A DNA stretch of 64,000 nucleotides from an uncultured Hyphomicrobiales bacterium (GTDB lineage: Bacteria; Pseudomonadota; Alphaproteobacteria; Rhizobiales; Ancalomicrobiaceae), in assembly GCA_903930435.1 (NCBI GenBank), contig CAIYYN010000054.1, positions 248,001 to 312,000 of the forward strand, written 5' to 3'. Within the stretch, counting starts at the first letter, position 1; every line of letters begins with the position of its first letter. Below, in pieces: positions 36,864 to 39,381 of this stretch. A program made the position numbers and the translations under genes. Below the pieces are notes generated by a model. That model was not told the DNA's origin and ran no database searches. It saw only the letters and a program-made list of their open reading frames with translations.

Positions 36864-37606
36864 CCCTAGTTCAAAACACGGGAAGCGGCGGTTATGTAGA
36901 GATCACGGCTGCCGGAGGGCCTTCTCGCCTTTGAATCTGGATTTCTATCGATGATTGAACCAAGAACATAACAAATATGGATAGCATATTTATAAAATAA
37001 ATAAATTGATTGGGCTAACCTCTTCAATTCAATTTATAATCTCCAAAAATTATTTGGTCAGAAAATAATCAAAAACGAAATTATATAAATCTGCAGCAAA
37101 TCAAAATTATCAGAGAGTATTCATGAAAAAAAGACACGCAAATATTTGATATTTTTTACTATTCAGTGAAATATTATAAGGAAATCAGGACTCTTGAACG
37201 ACGAAGAGGATGTCAAAAAGCCAGCATTATTGCCAATTTTTTCAAAACAGTAAAAAGAATCAAATAGAACGAACATAACGCCTCAGCAAGAGACGTGAAT
37301 GGCATTTGAAACGGCATCATTGAATAAAATTAGGAGTTGTGGATAAAACAGTCGAGATCATAACTAGAGAAACAGCGGATTGAACGTCTCTGTTCTGGCT
37401 ACTTCAGACATTTAATACAATCTCTCGATGTGAATGCGAAACTGTTGATTCACCGTAAATAATACAATACACTGAGACACAACTCGATTATCTATGCGTT
37501 TGAGGGTGTACCATCCATCGCGCAGCCTTGAGTGCAGGTTGATCCGTCACTGATCCAGAACGAGCGTGGGTCTTCAGTCCCACCGAGATCGACGAGCAGG
37601 TTTTGA
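36864..37606. other. Long AT-rich non-coding region upstream of luxR
   Basis: About 740 bases with no gene; 36960-37480 is far more AT-rich than the surrounding genome, with many stop codons in all frames. It may hold the luxR promoter and binding sites for nucleoid proteins, or be the remains of transferred DNA. No lux-type palindrome like the one before luxI was found close to the luxR start. Confidence 0.5.
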
Positions 37607-38341
37607 ATGTCCAAGTTCGATGACACCTTGAGCCTGATTGAAGAAATCGAACGGACGTCGACGCCGGACGCCGTCTGCCAGCAACTGTTGAATCTGAGTT
37701 CCCAATATGGACTGACCTGTCTTTTGGCGGGAACATTGCCCCGTCCACGCGAAACGGCCTCGAAAATTCGCGATCAGAATGTCTTTTTGAACGGTTGGCC
37801 GATGGGGTGGGCCGAGCGCTATTTTGAGCGCAACTATATTTTCATCGATCCGATCGCCACAAAGCTGCAGTCGGATCTGACAGCGTTTACCTGGGATCAG
37901 GCGCGTATTGATCCTGCAGTGGCCACCGATGCCAATCGCATGTTTGGCGAGGCGACCGAGTTTGGCCTGTGTGCCGGGTTTGCCATTCCGTTTGTGACGC
38001 TCGAAGGATCCATTGCGTCAATTTCATTGGGCGGTCAGCGGATTGAATTGCCGCCGCGCGCGAAGGGCATGTTGAGCCTGATCTCGACCTATACGATGGG
38101 TCGGGCGATCCAGCTGCGCAACAACACCAAACAGCAGACCCTTTACCGACCACTCACGCACCGCGAAATCGAAGCCATGCGGTGGGCGGCCGACGGCAAA
38201 ACCGAATGGGAGATTTCCGTGATCATGTCGATCTCGGAACACACGGCCGCAAAGCATCTGAATAATGCGCGGACAAAGCTCGGGGCCGTCAACAGGGTGC
38301 AAGCGATTGCCAATGCAATCCGATCCGGCATCATAAGGTGA
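37607..38341 (+). CDS. LuxR-family quorum-sensing transcriptional regulator
   Basis: A 244-residue acyl-homoserine-lactone receptor. The N-terminal autoinducer domain keeps every key ligand residue with LuxR/TraR spacing: Trp68, Tyr72, Asp81, Pro82 and Trp96 (equivalent to 57, 61, 70, 71, 85). The C-terminal HTH_LuxR runs from LTHREIEAMRW to about residue 240, including EISVIMSISEHTAAKHLNNA. It should bind the signal made by the synthase encoded 75 bases downstream and control that gene. Whether it is active with or without ligand cannot be read. Confidence 0.93.
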   Translation: MSKFDDTLSLIEEIERTSTPDAVCQQLLNLSSQYGLTCLLAGTLPRPRETASKIRDQNVFLNGWPMGWAERYFERNYIFIDPIATKLQSDLTAFTWDQARIDPAVATDANRMFGEATEFGLCAGFAIPFVTLEGSIASISLGGQRIELPPRAKGMLSLISTYTMGRAIQLRNNTKQQTLYRPLTHREIEAMRWAADGKTEWEISVIMSISEHTAAKHLNNARTKLGAVNRVQAIANAIRSGIIR

Positions 38342-38391
38342 TTTCAATACCAGAATAGAGCCATTTTTGGCCGAACGGCTTTGACAGATAA

Positions 38392-38409
38392 TCCCGACCA
38401 GAATCGGGA
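38392..38409 (+). promoter_or_regulatory. Palindrome (lux-box-like or RNA hairpin) before luxI
   Basis: TCCCGA-CCAGAA-TCGGGA: perfect 6-bp arms, 18 bp in all, the size of a lux box. The right arm runs into the Shine-Dalgarno (CGGGAG) seven bases before the luxI ATG, so in RNA the same sequence can fold and hide the ribosome binding site. Function is inferred. Confidence 0.5.
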
Positions 38410-38416
38410 GTATCAC

Positions 38417-39064
38417 ATGATTAAAGTCATATCTGGAGCAGATGAAAGCGTTTTCCCCGACATCTTCGAGCAAGCAGCTATACTTCGCCATTCGGTCTTT
38501 GTTGAAGAGATGGGATGGGAAGATCTGCGTCGTCCGGATGGCCGGGAGCGCGATCAATTTGATGATGCTTACGCAGTGCATCATTTTTGTATGAGAAATG
38601 ATCGGGTCATTGGCTACATCCGGATGTTGCCGACTTTGCGACCCTATTTGCTGTCTGAGGTATTTCCGGACCTGTGCGAGGGCGCACCGCCAAGAGCTGC
38701 CAATTGCTATGAATTGACCCGTTACTGCGTTGCACCGGCCTATCGGGAGGGCAAGCGCGGCGTGTCCTCGGCTGGCAGCGAGCTGATCGCCGGCTTCGTC
38801 GAATGGGGACTGGCGTGTGGCGTCAATCGCGTGATTCTCGAATTCGAGCCGATGTGGGTGCTGCGGGCGATGCAGTTGCGTTTCCTGGTCCGGCCGCTCG
38901 GCTTTCAGCAAAAGATCGGCGATCAGCAGATCGTGGCGACCGAGGTCACGTTCGACAAGCGGACGCTGGCGACGATCCGGGAATTCCGGGGTCATCCGTA
39001 CCCGGTTGTCGAGTTTTGTGGACAGTTGGCCGAGCAGATCCCCAGACAGGCCTACGCAAGCTGA
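38417..39064 (+). CDS. LuxI-family acyl-homoserine-lactone synthase
   Basis: A 215-residue autoinducer synthase. Conserved catalytic and binding residues are all present: Arg24, Phe28, Trp34, Asp46/Asp49, Arg69, Phe83, Glu99 and Arg102, matching LuxI numbering only if translation starts at the ATG at 38417 (an upstream TTG would shift them). It makes an N-acyl-homoserine lactone from SAM and an acyl donor; acyl-chain preference is not evident. Follows its cognate luxR in the same direction; a small unknown gene follows. Confidence 0.93.
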   Translation: MIKVISGADESVFPDIFEQAAILRHSVFVEEMGWEDLRRPDGRERDQFDDAYAVHHFCMRNDRVIGYIRMLPTLRPYLLSEVFPDLCEGAPPRAANCYELTRYCVAPAYREGKRGVSSAGSELIAGFVEWGLACGVNRVILEFEPMWVLRAMQLRFLVRPLGFQQKIGDQQIVATEVTFDKRTLATIREFRGHPYPVVEFCGQLAEQIPRQAYAS

Positions 39065-39180
39065 GTATCCGGTGTCGCCCCGCGAGACGGATGGTCTGCG
39101 ATCCCGAAATCGGACTGCCAAGCCCGCCCACGTTGATTTTGACTTTCCATGCGTCTGATCATCGAGTGAAAGAGTTGAGC

Positions 39181-39381
39181 ATGTCAAAAAAAATCAAACG
39201 GAGCCAAGACGATAGCGAGACACTCTATCGACTGCTGCGGCAGGCGATCCGTACCGCCGAGGCGGTTGCTGAGCCAGAGTATCCGATGACCACCTATCTG
39301 CTCAGGGTCGCCTTCGTCGCCCTTGAAGACGAAATGCGTGCGGCCATCGAGGCTGAGATCCGTGAGCTGACGATTTCATAG
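39181..39381 (+). CDS. Small protein of unknown function downstream of luxI
   Basis: A 66-residue protein, ATG preceded by AAAGAG. It begins with a basic stretch (KKIKRS), then an amphipathic, probably all-helical body (LYRLLRQAIRTAEAVAEPE, YLLRVAFVALEDEMRAAIEAEI). No known domain is recognised. It follows luxI by 116 bases on the same strand and may belong to the quorum-sensing operon, for instance as a modulator of LuxR or as a target. The regular heptad-like pattern favours a folded helical protein over a chance ORF. Confidence 0.55.
   Translation: MSKKIKRSQDDSETLYRLLRQAIRTAEAVAEPEYPMTTYLLRVAFVALEDEMRAAIEAEIRELTIS

Follow-up and report, generated by a model that had tools for sequence, protein, structure and literature searches.

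A palindrome ahead of an alphaproteobacterial luxI gene as a probable Shine–Dalgarno-sequestering RNA hairpin of a widely conserved kind

Results

A palindrome over the luxI Shine–Dalgarno sequence

The window, by which we mean the whole 64,000-nucleotide stretch of DNA analysed here, comes from a Hyphomicrobiales genome and carries a luxR-type regulator gene that ends 75 nt upstream of a co-directional luxI-type gene. The features on which our argument draws are the following.

37607–38341, + strand: luxR-type regulator gene, a possible source of read-through (open reading frame; Pfam Autoind_bind 1.6e-22, GerE 7.3e-15)
38344–38365, + strand: candidate LuxR operator, a weak dyad TCAATACC-N8-GC-ATT centred near 38355 (alignment with three Pinisolibacter-type leaders; position as for other luxI dyads)
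38387–38392, + strand: candidate −10 element GATAAT (from the sequence, with a spacing that fits the predicted start)
38392–38397, + strand: left hairpin arm TCCCGA, anti-Shine–Dalgarno, extended arm 38387–38397 (sequence, repeat search, leader comparison)
38398–38403, + strand: hairpin loop CCAGAA, with the predicted transcription start at 38399–38400 (operator centre plus the 44-bp rule, PMC5882170)
38404–38409, + strand: right hairpin arm TCGGGA, extended arm 38404–38414 (sequence, repeat search, leader comparison)
38406–38410, + strand: luxI Shine–Dalgarno core GGGAG (sequence; predicted opening costs)
38417–39064, + strand: luxI-type AHL synthase gene, 215 aa (Pfam Autoind_synth 1.1e-17; relatives up to 68% identity)

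The LuxI relatives at 58–68% identity belong to Pinisolibacter, Hansschlegelia, Methylopila, Nitratireductor and Mesorhizobium, and the host genome shares its family-level group with genomes in which the luxI locus matches Pinisolibacter records. No luxI match was found in the two other genomes sampled from the genus, so the luxR–luxI pair is patchily distributed within it. Just after luxI lies a small open reading frame of 66 aa (39181–39381, MSKKIKRSQDDSETLYRLL...) with only a sub-threshold match to DUF6457; none of the compared luxI loci contains a relative of it. Within the window we found no terminator-like site on the forward strand between luxR and luxI, and a search of 37200–39300 with the Rfam covariance models returned no match at E up to 1.

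An exact 18-bp palindrome, TCCCGACCAGAATCGGGA (TCCCGA-CCAGAA-TCGGGA), occupies 38392–38409, its centre 16.5 bp before the luxI ATG, exactly where the original prediction had placed it. Its right arm does, as also claimed, contain the ribosome binding site: the GGGAG core is followed by six bases and then by the ATG at 38417. The luxI reading frame is open also from a TTG at 38381. By repeat search the arms can be extended to 38387–38397 and 38404–38414, 11 nt that are 91% complementary with one mismatch. As RNA it is predicted to fold into a 6-bp hairpin (−8.0 kcal/mol) and, in the extended form, into one with 10 pairs (−11.4 kcal/mol). Opening the Shine–Dalgarno (SD) sequence in this leader would cost 9.4 kcal/mol, a value reached by 0.6% of control genes. 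Taken alone, the hairpin is moderately unlikely to have arisen by chance: when the upstream 28 nt are dinucleotide-shuffled, 34 of 2000 cases equal or exceed its SD opening energy (p ~0.017), and an SD-overlapping stem with a score of at least 6 appears in 110 of 2000 shuffles. Rather, the palindrome stands above chance because its pairing is conserved in relatives.

Inexact copies of the 18-mer, with up to 3 mismatches, are not above chance frequency in the window. The pattern TCCCGAN6TCGGGA has one further exact copy in the genome, just 3′ of an open reading frame resembling 3-hydroxyacyl-CoA dehydrogenase and not at a start site; with the only other exact copy lying behind an unrelated gene, we rejected a regulon of such sites.

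Pairing with the SD sequence recurs across alphaproteobacteria

Leaders anchored on luxI start codons were grouped into 22 close lineages, 68 further Hyphomicrobiales lineages, 64 lineages from other alphaproteobacterial orders and 17 from gamma- and betaproteobacteria. In the wider sets an SD-aware rule picked the start codons, and it treated the gamma/beta set equally. SD opening energies are predictions at 37 °C, the controls are 157 SD-bearing genes drawn from the window and from the luxI loci compared, and the lineage statistics rest on clustering without phylogenetic correction. The mean opening energy is 8.5 kcal/mol in the 22 close luxI lineages versus 3.1 in the controls (p=1.2e-11). 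The 68 further Hyphomicrobiales lineages show the same SD-hiding effect. It holds as well in alphaproteobacteria of other orders (mean 6.6, p=1e-9), where about half of the lineages have no strong hairpin. The effect is absent from the 17 gamma/beta lineages (mean 3.0, p=0.8), a contrast that is confounded with phylogeny. Within the same loci the SD of luxR is less hidden than that of luxI (4.2 versus 6.9, p=0.007).

What is kept near −25 is the pairing itself: arm sequences and loop lengths differ among relatives, and each inverted repeat includes the SD. The leader repeats read TCCCGT-TTTGAT-ACGGGA in lineage L055, TTTCCTTC-GTAAAA-GAAGGAGA in L072, TCTCTCC-AAAACCAAA-GGAGAGA in L050 and CCTTGA-GACA-TCAAGG in L073, and the L140 leader has an 11-bp stem. 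More distant luxI genes (L253, L254, L319, L338, L262 and L329) carry perfect or near-perfect stems of 9–12 bp, of which that of L253 spans 12 bp and that of L319 is a perfect 9 bp, and many stems reach well beyond the SD. Leaders of Pinisolibacter, the nearest relatives, do not have this DNA palindrome, and in them GGCCUC and GAGGUC can pair around their own SD.

When left arms are swapped between lineages the SD opening energy falls (z=7.5), and not one of 20000 permutations attains the value observed. With stricter clustering at 62%, the swap z is 6.8 across 32 alphaproteobacterial lineages and −0.6 across 32 control genes. Arms and loop lengths that vary in this way around a conserved pairing argue that selection acts on pairing in the RNA rather than on a DNA site bound by a protein. 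On these comparisons, conservation of the SD pairing by compensatory change is well supported, and the luxI palindrome is probably one case of a widely conserved SD-sequestering RNA hairpin. The covariation thus favours one of the two readings originally offered, that the palindrome as RNA hides the SD; as for the suggested check in relatives, SD pairing was kept and arm sequence and loop length were not.

Operator-like dyads lie further upstream

In forty alphaproteobacterial luxI lineages an 18-bp dyad lies between −90 and −46 with 7 or more of its 9 positions paired, where 6 such lineages would be expected by chance, and the dyad centres mostly fall at −60 to −76 from the luxI start. The candidate operator of the window at 38344–38365 occupies a similar position, and its dyad symmetry is weak, with no more than 5 of the 9 pairs matching. 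In class II lux/tra box promoters, such as those of Agrobacterium tumefaciens TraR and Mesorhizobium TraR, the operator centre lies ~44–45 bp upstream of the transcription start (PMC3907764, PMC5882170); published RNA-seq of Mesorhizobium maps the traI1 and traI2 5′ ends to a distance of 44 bp from the centre of the box (PMC5882170). The luxI family resembles these promoters, with an operator ~44–45 bp before the start and ~60–70 bp before the gene, whereas the palindrome is a separate element downstream of the operator, over the predicted start and the SD. At −25 close relatives share neither the sequence nor the half-site spacing expected of a lux/tra box, and the palindrome does not lie ~44 bp (class II) or 65 bp (class I) upstream of the start. 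The palindrome is therefore probably not a LuxR box.

Two copies of the 8-mer ACCAGAAT, 48 bp apart, lie in the candidate operator (38349–38356) and across the hairpin loop (38397–38404); they may reflect chance or a second weak regulator contact.

Predicted starts within the hairpin and two kinds of message

Both the candidate operator and GATAAT would place the window's transcription start at 38399–38400. Across the 14 lineages in which box and hairpin are both clear, the 44-bp rule predicts a start no more than 5 nt from the final left-arm base in 13 and within 3 nt in 12. With luxI leaders aligned on the hairpin, no shared −10 motif is enriched at the predicted position across lineages.

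In the window, opening the SD would cost ~1–1.5 kcal/mol if the transcript starts in the loop and ~10 if it comes from luxR; over 28 lineages the means are 3.3 for native transcripts versus 8.1 for read-through (p=7e-8). For traI1 of WSM1271, whose 5′ end is published, the values are 1.9 for the native message and 6.8 for read-through.

Of the 154 alphaproteobacterial lineages, 118 have a co-directional luxR 35–242 nt upstream of luxI; among the 17 gamma/beta lineages, 1 does. Within alphaproteobacteria the hairpin is slightly stronger beside a co-directional luxR (7.6 versus 6.6, p=0.07), and several lineages in which no luxR was detected still carry it. This weak trend led us to reject a strong dependence of the hairpin on co-directional luxR, and the silencing of read-through accordingly stands as a proposed purpose.

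Discussion

Our comparison of luxI leaders outlines how a palindrome of the size of a lux box could instead act in the message, by pairing with the SD in transcripts that carry both arms. In the mechanism we propose, a LuxR-type protein bound ~60 bp upstream of the ATG would direct transcription to begin near 38399–38400, within the hairpin loop. The native, LuxR-driven message would then lack the left arm, leaving the SD free and luxI translated, whereas messages entering from luxR would contain both arms, fold, and leave luxI silent. The signal synthase would thus be made only from its own quorum-activated promoter and be insulated against leakage from luxR. We infer the position of the start within the hairpin, the read-through and its silencing from predicted folds and promoter spacing, and we lean towards the palindrome being an SD-sequestering hairpin across the luxI start that silences read-through while sparing the native message. 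For the class as a whole our confidence is evenly divided: alphaproteobacterial luxI genes, mostly downstream of luxR, may carry a promoter-embedded anti-SD hairpin that silences luxR read-through and sharpens the quorum switch, and the same balanced judgement extends to its having been repeatedly rebuilt by compensatory change. A start downstream of 38392, which had been named at the outset among the findings that would speak against the palindrome, is probably part of the truth but does not remove the function of the hairpin, since a start inside it would free the native SD with read-through messages still silenced.

If transcription instead began upstream of 38387, the same pairing would set or regulate translation of the main luxI message directly, as an RNA switch whose opening might depend on an sRNA, a protein, processing by RNase or some other signal. 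Conserved pairing alone fits any such RNA-level control, and Pseudomonas lasI, another synthase gene, is treated as under RNA-thermometer control. An alphaproteobacterial precedent is the 5′ UTR of sinI in Sinorhizobium meliloti, which is under post-transcriptional control by RNase E and the sRNA RcsR1 (PMC5977203, PMC7143759). Against such a switch, the Mesorhizobium box-to-start spacing would have transcription begin within the left arm or beyond it in most lineages, and the arms and loops have no common sequence that a shared sRNA or protein might recognize. The window hairpin is also too stable for a simple thermometer, its predicted −8.0 and −11.4 kcal/mol at 37 °C declining to −5.8 and −7.9 at 50 °C, and we rejected that variant; a switch on the main message therefore strikes us as rather unlikely. 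Still less probable is that the pairing has no function and that a pyrimidine-rich stretch near the start is complementary to a purine-rich SD by chance. Left arms are indeed C/T-rich across lineages, pairing with swapped arms (5.0) still exceeds that in ordinary genes (3.1), and the window hairpin on its own is only moderately unlikely by the shuffling test. Yet each lineage's own arm outperforms swapped ones under both clusterings, as is not seen for control genes, and many stems, such as those of L253 and L319, extend far past the SD.

The alternative that the palindrome is an operator at which LuxR or another repressor blocks transcription over the start site and SD, the DNA half of the original prediction, draws on its 18-bp length, its dyad symmetry, its overlap with the predicted start and the recurrence of the loop 8-mer in the candidate upstream operator. 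At −25, however, pairing is conserved while arm sequence and loop length vary freely, operator-like dyads lie ~60–76 bp upstream of the gene start, and Pinisolibacter keeps the upstream site without the palindrome. Nor was a set of such sites at promoters seen among exact copies in the genome and inexact copies in the window. We rejected the LuxR roadblock on the lack of sequence conservation at −25 and the presence of operator-like dyads elsewhere, and regard an operator of this kind as very improbable.

The proposed read-through insulation has counterparts in other systems. Late-gene leaders of phage T4 (gene e, soc) have late promoters inside a hairpin that hides the ribosome binding site, so that long upstream transcripts with both arms are silent and the gene's own transcript, which starts in the stem-loop, is translated. 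The transposases of IS10 and IS50 are protected against read-through by a hairpin that hides the ribosome binding site in incoming transcripts. By analogy, the luxI hairpin may work by a design like that of the T4 leaders and of IS10/IS50 protection. As in T4, the proposed inner start would drop one arm; at luxI, however, this predicted start would be a LuxR-activated synthase promoter found on chromosomes and plasmids. IS200 likewise has a stem-loop that occludes the ribosome binding site (cited in PMC3196728). All three insertion sequences resemble luxI in hiding the site in transcripts from outside; unlike them, luxI is not a mobile-element terminus, and its arms vary from relative to relative and do not form terminal inverted repeats. 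Control of S. meliloti sinI likewise targets an alphaproteobacterial AHL synthase mRNA in its 5′ leader and around the SD, with RcsR1 binding near the SD, but depends on RNase E and a trans-acting sRNA; a cis anti-SD arm is not described in the text consulted (PMC5977203, PMC7143759). Our search of the open-access literature yielded no description of the luxI hairpin or of a quorum-sensing insulator of this kind.

A leaky synthase makes autoinduction circuits misfire, and in most sampled alphaproteobacteria, with luxR just upstream in the same direction, any luxR transcript could yield signal. If our reading is right, a hairpin that silences precisely the luxR messages, and that the native start leaves behind, would explain how these circuits stay off and offer a cis-element to search for more generally. 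It also cautions against taking every conspicuous palindrome at luxI for a LuxR box.

Two further observations concern the surroundings and the upstream dyads. Upstream of luxR, ~600 bp (36900–37500) are AT-rich, with 25–40% G+C against 58% for the window, and contain no gene of size by the look of the sequence; the stretch may have been acquired, or may be a silenced regulatory region. The operator dyads at about −65 differ between sister luxI clades, with TAGGGGAATTCCCCTA in L049 and L129 and TTACGTGATCACGTAA in L051 and L072, suggesting fast coevolution of LuxR and its operator.
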